In this document: in pieces, positions 25,527-31,580 of the stretch | How the letters are laid out: each line of letters opens with the position of its first letter | Numbering within the stretch: the first letter of the stretch is position 1 | NCBI GenBank assembly: GCA_030751095.1 | Contig: JASMGX010000003.1 | Span: forward strand, 7,366 to 51,046 | Origin: Pirellulales bacterium | GTDB taxonomy: Bacteria; Planctomycetota; Planctomycetia; Pirellulales; UBA7805 | Direction of reading: 5' to 3' | Length of the DNA stretch: 43,681 bases | Program-made: the position numbers and the translations under genes | The notes under the pieces: model-generated | What the model saw: only the letters and a program-made list of their open reading frames with translations | What the model was told of the DNA's origin: nothing | Database searches by the model: none

Positions 25527-26630
25527 CTAGGGCAAGCGGGCCGATTCCCGTTGCCCCGTATTGCCACAGCTTTGGCAGGTCGGCAGCAGACTGTGGCGGA
25601 TCTCGCCACACTGCGAGCACTTTTCATACAGCCCCGTTGAACAGGTGGGACAGGTATATGCGGTTTCATTTGCGGTTTGTTCGGCAGAAGAGGGGGCCAT
25701 TTTTTTGATTGTTCGACGGGTCCAGAAGCGGTACTTGAGCGGCCCGCGACGGATAGGATAGGCACAGATCGGGCAGAAAAAAAACTCGTAGGCTTCCCGG
25801 TACTGCCGCAACAACCAGTCTTTCTTCGGGAAGGCCATCATCCGCAGCAAGTAGACGAGAATCCGCACCACGATCGCCAGGGCGGTAAGAATCAGCACGT
25901 ACTTGAAATAGCGCGATGGGAAATGCTCGTGCATCACCACGGCCACCTTGAGCACCACGGCGATTCCAAAAGCATAGATCAGCGGTGTATAGGTGCCACC
26001 GCGGAATTTAAAAAAGAGAACCATCGTCACGAGCAACAGCGGCAGCAGCAGTGCAAGCTTGAACATTGCGATTTTAAATTCATGCTGATCCCACAGGCGA
26101 TAATATTGTTCCTTGATCGGTTTGCGCAACTTTTCAATTTCCGTCTCCAGAGCGCGCCCCCCATCCTCCAAATGGGTAAGCTCTTCGTTGAGTTGGACGA
26201 TGGCCTGATTCAATAACTGGTATTGTTTCTGGTTTGCCAGAAAACGCCGTTGGCTCTCGGCCAGCGCCTGCTTCTCCTCCGCAGAAGGTGTCACATTCTT
26301 CTGTAGGTTCAATCGCTGGAACTCGAGAAGCTGGTTCATGGTTTTCTGAGAGCTGCTTGTACTGTCGCGCAACAGTGTCTGCCGTTGGCTCTGTGCAGAT
26401 ATTTGCCGCTTGATCTCCGCCACCTGGTCCCCGAGCGACTTTTGTTTCTCTATCAGACCCGGATCGAGTAACTCCTTTTCAAATTTTTCGTAATTGGGTC
26501 CGGGCCAGCTACCGATATCGTTCACCACAAACCCGAGCAGCCAGAAACAGAGAATTCCCATGATCACACTGAACAACATGATCAGAAATCGATGTGTCCA
26601 GGGACCTTTGTTTTTGTGTTTTATGTTCAT
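25527..26630 (-). CDS. Membrane protein with coiled coil and C-terminal zinc ribbons
   Basis: A 367-aa inner-membrane protein. One N-terminal helix (about 16-37, FLIMLFSVIMGILCFWLLGFVV) is followed by a long charged coiled coil (about 50-180) rich in Gln, Glu, Lys and Leu. Three hydrophobic helices lie at about 188-262. The C-terminal cytoplasmic region holds cysteine pairs: CPIC (about 288), CPTC, CSQC and CQSC, which fit two or more zinc ribbons of the rubredoxin/DUF7577 kind. I recall similar planctomycete proteins carrying misleading labels such as serine endopeptidase; no protease motif is seen here. The gene is about 110 bp upstream of lpdA on the same strand, and the function is unknown. 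Confidence 0.7.
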   Translation of the reverse strand: MNIKHKNKGPWTHRFLIMLFSVIMGILCFWLLGFVVNDIGSWPGPNYEKFEKELLDPGLIEKQKSLGDQVAEIKRQISAQSQRQTLLRDSTSSSQKTMNQLLEFQRLNLQKNVTPSAEEKQALAESQRRFLANQKQYQLLNQAIVQLNEELTHLEDGGRALETEIEKLRKPIKEQYYRLWDQHEFKIAMFKLALLLPLLLVTMVLFFKFRGGTYTPLIYAFGIAVVLKVAVVMHEHFPSRYFKYVLILTALAIVVRILVYLLRMMAFPKKDWLLRQYREAYEFFFCPICAYPIRRGPLKYRFWTRRTIKKMAPSSAEQTANETAYTCPTCSTGLYEKCSQCGEIRHSLLPTCQSCGNTGQRESARLP

Positions 26631-26792: not shown

Positions 26793-27437
26793 CTAGTTCT
26801 GTTCCAGTTTCAGCGAGGCTGGTTGACCACCGGTCAACCATGGAGGCATGAAGTTCCTAGGGAGAATCTGCCCCACGGCAACCGCCAACCCGACCACCGC
26901 ACCGACCAGGTGGACCAACGGAACCGGAACGAACAAGTGGGACGAACCACGGACGAAGATGGTGCCGTTGGTGTAAAATTCCCAGCCGATCTTAAGAACC
27001 ATCCCCAGCAGGAGCAGCCCGGTCATCACTGTCCGGCCGTGACGGCCCTCCCGACAGCTTTGAGCGCACATCATCACACCCAAGAAGGCAAACAGGGCCG
27101 TGTCGAGTCCACTCAGTCCACGGTAGGTTGTAATCTCCGGCATCAGCAGCCAGACCGCAGCGGGAATCAGAACCGCTGAAACACCGAGACAGGCAAGCGT
27201 GGCCATTCGGTGACGACGCTCGCAAATGACGCCAAGAACGGCGAATACCACCGTATCCCACACAAGGTGTTCAAATCCGAAGTGGGCCAGATGTCCGGTC
27301 AGTATCCGCCACCAGTCTCCGGCACCCACCGCGACGCGATCAAATTCCAACACCGCGGACGCGCCCGGCCAGAGTGCCACCACCAGACTGGCCACAGCGA
27401 TCGTTGTCGTCACCTGCCAACGGCTCGTCGTATTCAT
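26793..27437 (-). CDS. rrtA: Rhombosortase-like rhomboid intramembrane serine protease
   Basis: A 214-aa polytopic membrane protein of the rhomboid superfamily, rhombosortase branch, which cleaves and processes proteins carrying a C-terminal GlyGly-CTERM signal. The start ATG 27437 has AAAGGA 6 bp away. The family marks are visible: the loop-helix WWRILTGHLAHFGFEHL (about 42-58), the nucleophile motif YRGLSGLDTALF with Ser109, and the catalytic His176 in VPLVHLVGA, about 67 residues later as expected for a Ser-His dyad. In typical members, HLxxN follows the second helix start; here the segment is HLVWD, so the asparagine is replaced by Asp. Its likely substrate is the VIT/vWA protein encoded just upstream on the same strand, which ends in a GlyGly-CTERM-like tail. 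Confidence 0.85.
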   Translation of the reverse strand: MNTTSRWQVTTTIAVASLVVALWPGASAVLEFDRVAVGAGDWWRILTGHLAHFGFEHLVWDTVVFAVLGVICERRHRMATLACLGVSAVLIPAAVWLLMPEITTYRGLSGLDTALFAFLGVMMCAQSCREGRHGRTVMTGLLLLGMVLKIGWEFYTNGTIFVRGSSHLFVPVPLVHLVGAVVGLAVAVGQILPRNFMPPWLTGGQPASLKLEQN

Positions 27438-27579: not shown

Positions 27580-29757
27580 CTAGGCTTCTATCCCATCATC
27601 ACTGGACTTTTTACCCGTGGACTTCCTGCGGCGCAGTCGCCTGGCCAGCGCGGCGCCGGCCAGACCAAGGGCAATCGCGCCACTGAACGGGTCGATCGCG
27701 CCACCACCACCGCTACTACGATTGCCAGAACGACTACCCGGTGTCACGATATCAAATCCGCTCGGACGGTTGCCGGACGTCGGTGGACGCCCTATTTCTG
27801 GCTGCGAGATGGTTTTCACAACCACAGGCTTTTTATTGGCCGCGTGTTCGGCCGGTTCGTTGAGCGGTTGGATCTGGTCCAGTGTCCGTTCACGCAATTG
27901 TGCAAGTTCTTTGTTGACAATCTCGCGACCAGATCGGTCGCGAACGATACGATTCGCGTTGCGTCGTTTGATCTTCCAACGCTGATATTCGGCGTCGTTT
28001 TCCAACACGATAAACGAGGCGTACTGACTGATGATGGAATACTCCTCACAAAGTCGAATGATCTCGTTCGTATCCATCTGGGTTCCCAACCGGCCAGCAC
28101 GCATCAACTGCTCGACCCTTCGATAGGCCCACATCCGTTCGATTTCGGAATTGCCAGCGGTTTTTTTCGGAAAATCCACCTCGACGCTCTGATCGACTGC
28201 CTGACCGAGCACTTCACCCTTGAAGGTGACAGACCCGGTACCACCGTTCTTGTAGCGTCCGTAGAGACGCAGTGGCGCCCCGTAAAAGAGATTGGGTAAT
28301 TCTTTAGGTTCCAGGTCGTAGACTTCGACGCCGTCGAAGGTGAAGTTCACATTCGTGGCAGCCGGACGCAATAACTTACGACGGAAGGCGGTAGCCGCCC
28401 TTTCAAAATCATCCTCCTGCGAAATAAAATCGGCGATACCGCCCGCCTTCTGGGCCAGTTGATTGAGGATCGGCCGGTTCACCTCGTTACCTACTCCGAT
28501 ACAGAACACCCGTGACCCGGCGGGTCTCTGGTCGATCGCACGCAACAGTTCCTGTTGCTCCGCTTGCCCGGTCATTCCGTCCGACAGGACCACAATGTTG
28601 AGTACGCGGTCAGGATCGTCGTAACGATAGGCGGCGCTCACTGCAGGCCATAGCGATGTTCCACCCCGCGCCTTCTGCTGGGCTAGAAATTCCGACGCCT
28701 GTTGTTGTGTCTCCTTGCTCACTGCTTGAAGACTGGCCCACAAAGGGTTTGGTGAAATGTTGAACGCCATCATCTCGAAACGATCCTGGGGGCCGAGCGA
28801 TTCAATAAATGCCTGCAACGAATTTCGCGACATTCGCATTTTTCCGTCGTTGGCCATGCTTCCAGAAACGTCCAGGATGAACACGTAGTCCATACCGTGG
28901 TTGATCTCTTCCAACTCCTGGCCAGCCGTAAGCGTGAGTTGAAAGTAGCCGTCTTCACCACCTTGCTTGGAAGTGATGATATCAAAGCCGGTTCGTGGAC
29001 GTTCGGTATCGAAGTGCAACACCACGTCACGACTCAAGTCGCCCCCGCTGACTTCCAAACTCGCCTGGCAATAATTCGGCGAGTGTTCCACTGTGATAAA
29101 TTGATCCGTGTGCGACGGGCTACTCAGGCGCACGATCGGCACCTCGCTCTTGACATCCAACGAAAGAGCAAACTTACCACTGGTACGCTGGTCGATGGCA
29201 CCGGTCCTCGCAGTGCCTGACGAAACGGTCGTGGCCAATGGATAAACATACGTTGCCTCGTCATGGTCGAAATCGAGTTCCTGATAATAGGTCACCTTGA
29301 TGCGCTGTTCGGCGTTTGCCGCGATCGGATAGATCCGCATCTCGAAACGCTTGTAATCGACCTGTTCCAACAGCCCCGGATCGACCTTTGTCGCTTTATA
29401 GCTTTCGTAAATCTCCCGGGCACGCTTCTTCTCGACCACTTCGCCGATCATTTCCTTGCCGTTGATCCACATGCTGAAGTTGGCCACGCTAGCTCCTGAA
29501 GGGACAGGAAACGTGTAGAGTGCCTCGACCATCCGGTTTTCCTTGTTCACAAAAATTTGTTCCAGTTCGGTCACCGCAACGCCGTTATTGACGACAACCT
29601 TGACGTTGTGTTCCTTGATTTCGAGTTCGCCACCGAACCTGCCTTCGGCCACCAACAGCCCGGCGGCATGTAACGAGCTCGACCCGCCAACGGCGAGCAG
29701 TGTCAGCGTGACGAGAACCGTAAGAGTGCGTGTTAGGAAACGTATTTGGGTAGACAT
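27580..29757 (-). CDS. Secreted VIT/von Willebrand A protein with a GlyGly-CTERM-type sorting tail
   Basis: A 725-aa surface-directed protein. ATG 29757 has GGAGG six bases away, making it better than the GTG one codon earlier. A signal peptide (about 1-32) is followed by a VIT domain (about 37-165, from GGELEIKEHNVKVVV to KVTYYQELDFD) and a vWA domain (about 290-455). The metal-ion site is complete: DVSGS at 296-300, the GGTS threonine and the SDGMTG aspartate. The C-terminus has GGGG at 683-686, a hydrophobic helix (691-705, FSGAIALGLAGAALA) and the Arg cluster RRLRRR, then a further 14 residues. That layout matches the GlyGly-CTERM signal recognised by rhombosortase, which is encoded next. 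Transcription is probably from the sigma-54 site at 29809-29823. vWA/MIDAS proteins bind metal-dependent protein partners, so an adhesive or sensing role outside the cell is likely. Confidence 0.85.
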   Translation of the reverse strand: MSTQIRFLTRTLTVLVTLTLLAVGGSSSLHAAGLLVAEGRFGGELEIKEHNVKVVVNNGVAVTELEQIFVNKENRMVEALYTFPVPSGASVANFSMWINGKEMIGEVVEKKRAREIYESYKATKVDPGLLEQVDYKRFEMRIYPIAANAEQRIKVTYYQELDFDHDEATYVYPLATTVSSGTARTGAIDQRTSGKFALSLDVKSEVPIVRLSSPSHTDQFITVEHSPNYCQASLEVSGGDLSRDVVLHFDTERPRTGFDIITSKQGGEDGYFQLTLTAGQELEEINHGMDYVFILDVSGSMANDGKMRMSRNSLQAFIESLGPQDRFEMMAFNISPNPLWASLQAVSKETQQQASEFLAQQKARGGTSLWPAVSAAYRYDDPDRVLNIVVLSDGMTGQAEQQELLRAIDQRPAGSRVFCIGVGNEVNRPILNQLAQKAGGIADFISQEDDFERAATAFRRKLLRPAATNVNFTFDGVEVYDLEPKELPNLFYGAPLRLYGRYKNGGTGSVTFKGEVLGQAVDQSVEVDFPKKTAGNSEIERMWAYRRVEQLMRAGRLGTQMDTNEIIRLCEEYSIISQYASFIVLENDAEYQRWKIKRRNANRIVRDRSGREIVNKELAQLRERTLDQIQPLNEPAEHAANKKPVVVKTISQPEIGRPPTSGNRPSGFDIVTPGSRSGNRSSGGGGAIDPFSGAIALGLAGAALARRLRRRKSTGKKSSDDGIEA

Positions 29758-29808
29758 CACATTCCTCCTTTTTTGATAGATTGCCTGGTTACTACAGTAG
29801 CCAATAAA

Positions 29809-29823
29809 GCAAAGACCATGCCA
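29809..29823 (-). promoter_or_regulatory. Sigma-54 (-24/-12) promoter of the VIT/vWA-rhombosortase operon
   Basis: On the minus strand the sequence TGGCATGGTCTTTGC matches the sigma-54 consensus TGGCAC-N5-TTGC at all but one of the conserved positions, with the correct spacing. It is preceded by T and followed by T, as the extended consensus prefers. Transcription should start near 29797, leaving a 40-nt leader before ATG 29757. A sigma-54 activator gene lies on the other side of the same intergenic region. Confidence 0.8.
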
Positions 29824-29913
29824 AGCAGCCTGACAACACGCATAAAACGTTTTCCCAAAGGGACTTACGCCCGATCGATCAAGGCAGTGATGAACCTACA
29901 CGAACCATCGAGA

Positions 29914-29942
29914 TGTACATTTATTGAAGGCTGCTATACATT
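29914..29942 (+). promoter_or_regulatory. Possible sigma-70 promoter of the activator gene, inside the inverted repeat
   Basis: TGTACA (29914-29919) and TACATT (29937-29942), 17 bp apart, each match four of six consensus bases. If real, the activator's own promoter lies under its likely binding site, suggesting autoregulation. The match is weak. Confidence 0.25.
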
Positions 29943-29950
29943 AAATGTAC
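29915..29950. promoter_or_regulatory. 9-bp inverted repeat, likely enhancer site for the sigma-54 activator
   Basis: GTACATTTA (29915-29923) and TAAATGTAC (29942-29950) are exact inverted copies separated by 18 bp. The centre is about 135 bp upstream of the predicted sigma-54 start and about 88 bp before the activator gene. This is the usual position for an upstream activating sequence bound by a Fis-type helix-turn-helix dimer. Confidence 0.55.
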
Positions 29951-30020
29951 GTTTTGGCTGTGGACGATGGGCCCAGCGGTCGGGTGCAGACCCAGCCAGT
30001 CGTTCGGAAGGAGGGGTGAT

Positions 30021-31580
30021 ATGGCGGTCTTTTCCGAGGGCGAACATCGGTTTGTCGACGCACTGTCACGTTTGGCCTACGCCAATCCATTCTCGCCCGA
30101 GCGAATCAATCTGGAGCGGGAAGCACTGGGTGGAGATTTCAACGACCCATCGCCGGTCTGGAGCCAGCAAGTCGGCCTGGCCGACGATCGGCCCAACGTC
30201 CGTAAACTGGCCTCCCGGGCTGAACAACTGGCCAAGAAGATCCGAAAAAAACTCTGTGGCAAGGTCCCGGCGACTGACAGCGAGTTAGCGCTCTATCAGG
30301 ATCTTTGCTACTACGTACTCTACTATTGCTACTGGCCCAAAATGAACACAATGGTTGAACCCGCCTTGCGGGACGGCGCAACGTCCCCTTCTGGTAAGGT
30401 CGCATGGTGGAAACCCTACCGGGCCGATTTTGCTCACTACCTGGAGTTACCGGCACGGGAGTTACCATCTCGCGTTGAACCGGACCACCTGCTCGCCTGC
30501 TTCTTTCAGATTCGCCAGGCGTTCCATCACATCTTCACGTTCCTGGTAGGTGGTTCGATGCCGGCAGCCCGCCTGCGGGCCGCAGTGTGGCAGTCCATTT
30601 TTACACATGACATGCGTCGTTACCGCCGCACGCTGTACCAACGAATGGGTACGATTACCACGCTGGTAACGGGACCCTCCGGCACGGGAAAGGAACTGGT
30701 CGCCCGCGCAGTCGGCATGTCCCGGTACATTCCCTTCGACGCCAAAACCGAGACCTTCAGTGATGGTTTCTGTGGTGCGTTTCACACCTTGAATCTTTCG
30801 GCTTTGTCACCAACGCTCATCGAATCGGACCTGTTCGGCCACCGCCGCGGGGCCTACACCGGTGCGTTGGAAGATCGGGCGGGCTGGCTGGAGAAATGCC
30901 AGCCGCTCGGCACCATGTTCCTGGATGAAATTGGGGAGTTGGATGCGGCGATTCAGGTGAAACTATTGCGTGTGTTACAGAACCGCACGTTTCAACGCAT
31001 CGGTGAAAGCGAGGACCGCCACTTCCATGGCAAGCTGATTGTCGCAACGAACCGGGACCTGGCCACCGAAATGCACGCCGGTCGTTTCCGCGAAGACTTT
31101 TATTATCGCCTCTGTTCCGACATGATCACCACCCCCAGCCTCCGCGAGCAACTTGCCGACGAATATGGCAATCTGCGGAACCTAATCCTGTTCATCGCCC
31201 GTCGGGAGATCGATGACGAGGCAGAAGCTTTGGCTGACGAGGTCCTGCACTGGATCGACGAGAACCTGGGTTGTGACTATGCCTGGAAGGGTAACATTCG
31301 CGAACTGGAACAGTGTGTACGCAATGTCATGATCCGACGGGACTATCGTCCGACGGCCAGCGGGGAAGCGGGACCGCAGGAGCGTCTTATTACCAGGATG
31401 ACTGCGGGCACCCTCACCGCTGAGGAATTGTTACGTCAATACTGCACGCTAATCTACGCAAAGCTGGAAAGTTACGAGGCAACTGCCGGTCAACTCGGCC
31501 TGGACCGTCGCACCGTCAAGAGCAAGATCGACCGGAAGTTACTGGCCGAATTAAAATCCCCCAACGGCGGGACAGACTGA
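30021..31580 (+). CDS. Sigma-54-dependent transcriptional activator (AAA+) without a receiver domain
   Basis: A 519-aa bacterial enhancer-binding protein. ATG 30021 has AAGGAGGGG just upstream. The N-terminal 200 residues are an alpha-rich region I do not recognise; it lacks the phosphate-accepting aspartate layout of a response-regulator receiver and any GAF or PAS signature. The AAA+ domain (about 205-430) has Walker A GPSGTGKE (218-225), the sigma-54 contact loop GAYTGA (277-282, Tyr for the usual Phe) and Walker B GTMFLDE (297-303). It also has the arginine-finger region (NRTFQRIGES, FREDFYYRL). A C-terminal Fis-like helix-turn-helix (about 478-510, TAGQLGLDRRTVKSKID) binds DNA. It is divergent from the VIT/vWA gene whose promoter is sigma-54-like, so that operon is its probable target. 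Confidence 0.88.
   Translation: MAVFSEGEHRFVDALSRLAYANPFSPERINLEREALGGDFNDPSPVWSQQVGLADDRPNVRKLASRAEQLAKKIRKKLCGKVPATDSELALYQDLCYYVLYYCYWPKMNTMVEPALRDGATSPSGKVAWWKPYRADFAHYLELPARELPSRVEPDHLLACFFQIRQAFHHIFTFLVGGSMPAARLRAAVWQSIFTHDMRRYRRTLYQRMGTITTLVTGPSGTGKELVARAVGMSRYIPFDAKTETFSDGFCGAFHTLNLSALSPTLIESDLFGHRRGAYTGALEDRAGWLEKCQPLGTMFLDEIGELDAAIQVKLLRVLQNRTFQRIGESEDRHFHGKLIVATNRDLATEMHAGRFREDFYYRLCSDMITTPSLREQLADEYGNLRNLILFIARREIDDEAEALADEVLHWIDENLGCDYAWKGNIRELEQCVRNVMIRRDYRPTASGEAGPQERLITRMTAGTLTAEELLRQYCTLIYAKLESYEATAGQLGLDRRTVKSKIDRKLLAELKSPNGGTD

Follow-up and report, generated by a model that had tools for sequence, protein, structure and literature searches.

A very probable sigma-54 promoter with helically phased upstream boxes ahead of a VIT/vWA–rhombosortase gene pair in a Pirellulales bacterium

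Results

The window, by which we mean the whole stretch of 43,681 nucleotides that was analysed (Pirellulales bacterium, contig JASMGX010000003.1), contains a gene for a VIT/vWA surface protein, followed on the same strand by a rhombosortase gene, and, divergent from both, a gene for a sigma-54 activator. The region between the divergent genes holds a putative −24/−12 promoter element and three candidate upstream activator site (UAS) boxes. These features, in window coordinates, are as follows.

25527–26630, minus strand: membrane protein with C-terminal cysteine (zinc-ribbon-like) CxxC pairs; no Pfam or NCBIfam match
26793–27437, minus strand: rhombosortase, a rhomboid-type intramembrane protease encoded immediately after the VIT/vWA gene; TIGR03902, 112.5 bits (cut-off 84)
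27580–29757, minus strand: VIT/vWA surface protein, 725 aa, with a signal peptide-like N-terminus; PF08487, 104 bits; PF13768, 84.7 bits
27583–27711, minus strand: C-terminal sorting signal in the translation of the VIT/vWA gene (GGGGAIDP, hydrophobic helix, RRLRRRK)
29758–29797, minus strand: predicted leader of 40 nt, with the Shine-Dalgarno sequence GGAGG at 29764–29768
29797, minus strand: transcription start predicted by the spacing rule, 12 bp past the −12 C at 29809
29808–29823, minus strand: putative −24/−12 sigma-54 promoter element TGGCATGGTCTTTGCT, with GG at 29822–29821 and GC at 29810–29809
29914–29919, no strand assigned: candidate UAS box 1, the palindrome TGTACA, at −94 from the −24 GG
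29935–29940, no strand assigned: candidate UAS box 2, TATACA (TGTATA on the minus strand), at −115 from the −24 GG and 21 bp from box 1
29946–29951, no strand assigned: candidate UAS box 3, TGTACG (CGTACA on the minus strand), at −126 from the −24 GG and 11 bp from box 2
30021–31580, plus strand: sigma-54 activator (enhancer-binding protein), 519 aa, divergent; PF00158, 153 bits

The original prediction placed TGGCAT-N5-TTGC on the minus strand, with exact GG/GC spacing, and a direct read-out of the sequence confirmed the positions: 29823 to 29809 reads TGGCATGGTCTTTGC, with the 10 bases between the −24 GG and the −12 GC (GG-N10-GC) that are expected of a sigma-54 promoter. The 40-nt leader and strong GGAGG site that had also been proposed agree with the ATG of the VIT/vWA gene at 29757 (complement of 29755–29757), the position of the GGAGG and the predicted start. 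This site is the single match within the window to TGGCAY-N5-TTGC at zero mismatches, and it has the top sigma-54 score on either strand, 16.8 of a possible 19.0, the next site reaching 13.7, as judged by an approximate, unpublished matrix of our own. A search of 29700–30100 for a sigma-70-like promoter found none. A terminator-like hairpin at 29835–29819, which overlaps the −24 element, was dismissed as chance, with 1 found against 0.4 expected.

A match of this kind could be a chance likeness, with some other promoter driving the VIT/vWA gene. The match alone does not exclude this, because sites as good by the approximate matrix were present in 3 of 40 Markov-1 random windows, and because a pattern search of the bacterium's own draft genome (3.69 Mb, at 82% completeness) returned 16 matches to TGGCAYN5TTGCW, roughly half of which fall within long ORFs, while the pattern reversed as a control returned 3. 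The activator does lie alongside, as had been noted, but the argument that its adjacency makes chance unlikely was too strong, since perfect matches also fall in genes. The draft genome encodes sigma-54 itself (rpoN; PF04552, 215 bits) and seven proteins with strong PF00158 activator domains. Some of the other genome matches outside ORFs look real. Good intergenic sites are found 108 bp ahead of a CsrA-like gene (L143) and before a gene with a strong ribosome site (L150), whose 166-aa product looks by eye like a small heat-shock protein.

To assess conservation we used 80 loci with VIT/vWA orthologues (49–69% identical), which by their record labels come from Planctomycetota, Desulfobacterota, Nitrospirota and other phyla. 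In 54 entries, the window included, a gene for a full-length activator homologue stands divergently upstream; at one exceptional locus, L065, the activator is downstream on the same strand. After removal of near-duplicates, 46 non-redundant activator-linked intergenic regions remained, and 39 of these have a −24/−12 element scoring at least 9, compared with a mean of 2.4 and at most 7 in dinucleotide shuffles and with 2 on the opposite strand. At a score of 15 the element is found in 19 regions, against 0.09 in shuffles. Its usual position is 47–67 nt before the start codon. In distant VIT/vWA paralogues that lie outside this context, TGTACA was found in 0 of 21, and a score of at least 9 was reached in 5 of 21, in none of them 47–67 nt from the start. 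The prediction of a sigma-54 promoter facing the VIT/vWA gene is thus supported by rpoN, by the divergent activator and by this conservation, and it is the conserved position across orthologous loci that excludes chance: the same element stands at the same distance in several phyla, it is gone (as described below) where a genome lacks such an activator, and no sigma-70-like alternative is at hand. We therefore regard a chance match as extremely unlikely.

Some activator-linked loci have a degenerate −24/−12 element (L043, 4.0; L035, 5.4; L052, 6.6) and keep their boxes. Two loci, L005 and L185, were considered as promoter-less and rejected as such, because the activator gene and the VIT/vWA gene are separated there by another gene, ahead of which stands a candidate site (12.0). 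At L185 that gene encodes a homologue of the 25527–26630 membrane protein.

Upstream of the −24 element no hexamer is more enriched than TGTACA, which 32 of the 46 regions contain, against 2.2 in shuffles. Family-wide, the boxes fall at −88 to −94, −102, −111 to −113 and −121 to −125 from the GG; a period of 11.0 bp fits them best, and in 19 pairs the two boxes are separated by exactly 11 bp. Only two consensus sites anywhere in the draft genome have a TGTACA box at such a distance, one of them being the window locus. An activator that loops to its promoter needs whole-turn spacing at such a distance, so that the boxes fit an enhancer of a sigma-54 promoter, and by their sequence pattern they would qualify as a helically phased upstream activator site. 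It might be argued that they belong instead to the activator's own promoter, as sites of self-repression, or to an unrelated regulator. In the window they are about 70–105 bp from the activator's start codon, and dual control is possible; however, the 11-bp phase and the fixed range of distances to the −24 GG are those expected of an enhancer facing the promoter, and the same boxes together with a −24/−12 site also precede a different target gene of the activator family (below). We consider it unlikely that the boxes are something other than the enhancer of the VIT/vWA promoter.

The boxes go with the activator. Among the 72 mixed-phylum loci whose upstream sequence was long enough, 54 have a linked activator, and 38 of these carry TGTACA boxes, versus 3 of the 18 others (p = 9e-5); the −24/−12 element, at a score of 9, occurs at 46 of the 54 versus 13 of the 18 (p = 0.29), p-values that overstate the strength of the association because the loci are related by descent. 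The expectation that loss of the linked activator would remove the −24/−12 element thus failed in this set, where only the boxes vanish. In a sample of whole Planctomycete genomes, boxes were found in 11 of 11 cases where the activator immediately adjoins the gene versus 0 of 15 others. In the same sample the −24/−12 element, taken here at a score of at least 8, was present in 16 of 20 with the activator in the genome (the 20 omit G016, which has a gene in between) versus 0 of 6 without it (p = 0.0009, overstated by the same shared descent).

The promoter could be real and yet answer to a different activator from the one encoded divergently. There are seven strong PF00158 proteins in the draft genome from which to choose, and several loci keep a −24/−12 element without a linked activator or boxes; at these, another activator or an altered box is possible. 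Against this, the TGTACA boxes go with the linked activator and hardly occur otherwise, and the layout of activator, boxes and promoter is conserved together with the whole gene pair, which makes control by another activator very unlikely.

At four loci with the activator elsewhere in the genome (L127, L132, L133 and L136) the −24/−12 element is kept at 51–57 nt and the TGTACA boxes are lost. L132 and L133 have other upstream words in common, perhaps a changed box.

The activator (P0002) has the AAA+ features of an enhancer-binding protein, namely Walker A GPSGTGKE and GAYTGA, the latter being GAFTGA in most homologues. Its AlphaFold model (mean pLDDT 91.7) gave PDB matches of the AAA+ part to FleQ, FlrC and NtrC. 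A Fis-type HTH at the C-terminus, SYEATAGQLGLDRRTVKSKID, is conserved in the alignment by inspection, without a Pfam match, and the model has terminal helices there. Residues 1 to about 205 are all helical in the model, and this N-terminal domain gave neither a Pfam match nor, with Foldseek at E < 0.001, a PDB match. The best rows of a second look, 14-3-3 helical bundles, were rejected as its relatives, their Z of about 6 being too low to be meaningful for a helical domain.

The activator family numbers 57 copies in 52 of 397 genomes of the class, of which about 12 adjoin a VIT/vWA gene. About ten other copies (L169–L177 and L181; e.g. L171:4348-7017:-) are divergent to a gene for a multi-pass membrane protein of 740–990 aa, with a −24/−12 element ahead of it and, in many, TGTACA boxes. 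These proteins end in a conserved ...VYMMVGGG...YRDRLL...FRVLKWR, and the two that were scanned had no Pfam or NCBIfam match. Because boxes also precede many of these genes, the TGTACA box tracks the activator family and not the target, as would be expected of its binding site.

The C-terminus of the VIT/vWA protein, GGGGAIDPFSGAIALGLAGAALARRLRRRK, has the GlyGly-CTERM architecture of a Gly-rich motif, a hydrophobic helix and a basic end. GGGAIDP is invariant across 6 orthologues, and a tail of the GG-x-DP type is present in 61 of the 80 loci. None of the curated GlyGly-CTERM models reached its cut-off with this tail, which scores 17.8 bits with MYXO-CTERM (cut-off 20) and 9.7 with the MprA tail (cut-off 19.7). 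A rhombosortase lies downstream of the VIT/vWA gene, by profile, in 66 of the 71 loci with enough sequence. The membrane protein encoded at 25527–26630 is possibly the product of a third gene of the operon.

In 18 of the 80 loci (L051, L064, L096, L100, L101 and others, from Desulfobacterota and others) the tail is GSGPVGPLFV...W.RRRR instead, apparently an unlisted variant of the sorting signal; a rhombosortase above the cut-off is still the next gene in 5 of 5 of these that were checked.

Discussion

Because the element, the boxes and the activator accompany the same gene pair in many bacteria that are only distantly related, the short site at 29808–29823 is very probably a genuine sigma-54 promoter. 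The original prediction is supported as regards the promoter; it did not recognise the enhancer boxes, the sorting signal at the C-terminus or the rhombosortase gene, which are the features that indicate the promoter's purpose. We consider it highly probable that the site serves as core promoter to an operon dependent on sigma-54, switched by the divergent activator via the boxes and making the VIT/vWA protein and its rhombosortase. The conservation of promoter and boxes, the positional rule, the co-occurrence with the activator and the gene pairing on which this reading rests were established by comparing sequences among loci.

For the mechanism, we infer that the activator binds and activates in response to a signal and that the tail is cleaved and the protein displayed, in the following way. 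RNA polymerase with sigma-54 would rest at 29808–29823 as a closed complex, while the divergent activator would occupy the TGTACA-type boxes at 29914–29951 and loop to the promoter. Its N-terminal domain would sense the signal, and its AAA+ ATPase would remodel the closed complex by ATP hydrolysis. Transcription would then begin near 29797, the operon giving the surface protein and its own rhombosortase. The VIT/vWA protein would be exported through its signal peptide, and the adjacent rhombosortase would cut its tail at the glycines or close to them; by homology to Vibrio, a lipid-type attachment and surface display would probably follow.

Since promoter, boxes and activator recur before the same gene pair, cells seem to turn on one surface protein on demand. 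It is likely that the locus represents a cross-phylum module that had not been described, in which a family of one-component sigma-54 activators, with an unclassified helical sensor domain, recognises a TGTACA enhancer in 11-bp phase and turns on a dedicated surface-protein/rhombosortase pair, and has been re-used in some Planctomycetes for the large multi-pass membrane protein. VIT/vWA surface proteins that have a sorting enzyme of their own are widespread; the conservation of a tight sigma-54 switch with them across phyla points to production on demand, and the activator and its boxes would offer direct access to the question of when. A further indication is that sigma-54 control, seen for sorted PEP-CTERM proteins in Proteobacteria, has arisen or spread in rhombosortase systems too. 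In open-access literature text we found no published description of a sigma-54 switch for a VIT/vWA–rhombosortase pair, and literature searches combining rhombosortase with sigma-54, and GlyGly-CTERM with VIT, gave no matches.

Sigma-54 activators and the regulon of Pirellula sp. strain 1 were reportedly treated by Studholme and Dixon in 2004. Planctomycete sigma-54 promoters near activator genes have been predicted earlier, and csrA, a known Planctomycete sigma-54 target, was among them (2025 survey, PMC12316311); the present genome likewise has a −24/−12 site before its CsrA-like gene. The text of that survey makes no mention of vWA, rhomboid or sortase genes.

With respect to the sorting enzyme, Haft and Varghese (2011, PMC3237569) described dedicated GlyGly-CTERM/rhombosortase pairs, which the window locus resembles in having one target gene adjoining its rhombosortase; VIT/vWA-type proteins with alternative tails are already noted there. 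The GGGGAIDP tail of the window protein, in whose place other phyla have GSGPVGP, falls below the curated GlyGly models, and sigma-54 control, unlike here, is not described in the available portions of the GlyGly-CTERM/rhombosortase papers that we found. The one-target arrangement can also be likened to the rhombosortase pair of Vibrio cholerae VesB; in Vibrio, rhombosortase cuts such tails and the new end gains a glycerophosphoethanolamine-containing group before surface display (PMC6219818). The dedicated sortase target of marine proteobacteria, TIGR03788, has the VIT/vWA architecture in common with the window protein, whose similarity to that model is partial, at 245.4 bits, below its cut-off of 551.65; there, unlike here, the sorting enzyme is a sortase and the tail is of the LPXTG type.

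A close parallel in regulation is the PEP-CTERM/PrsR system of Proteobacteria, in which C-terminally sorted proteins are likewise under a sigma-54 promoter with an upstream activator motif. PEP-CTERM/EpsH genes have a sigma-54 motif and a second upstream motif (motif 1), about 63 nt apart on average, motif 1 being the presumed activator site (Haft et al., 2006, PMC1569441). PEP-CTERM genes have as their activator PrsR, a response regulator of the two-component type that acts with PrsK, whereas the activator here is one-component, is encoded next door and has a different N-terminal domain. It scores 161 bits with the PrsR model TIGR02915, below the cut-off of 502.6, which places the window locus outside the PEP-CTERM PrsR system. 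The sorting enzymes differ too, being EpsH (exosortase) for PEP-CTERM and a rhombosortase here, where the box is TGTACA.
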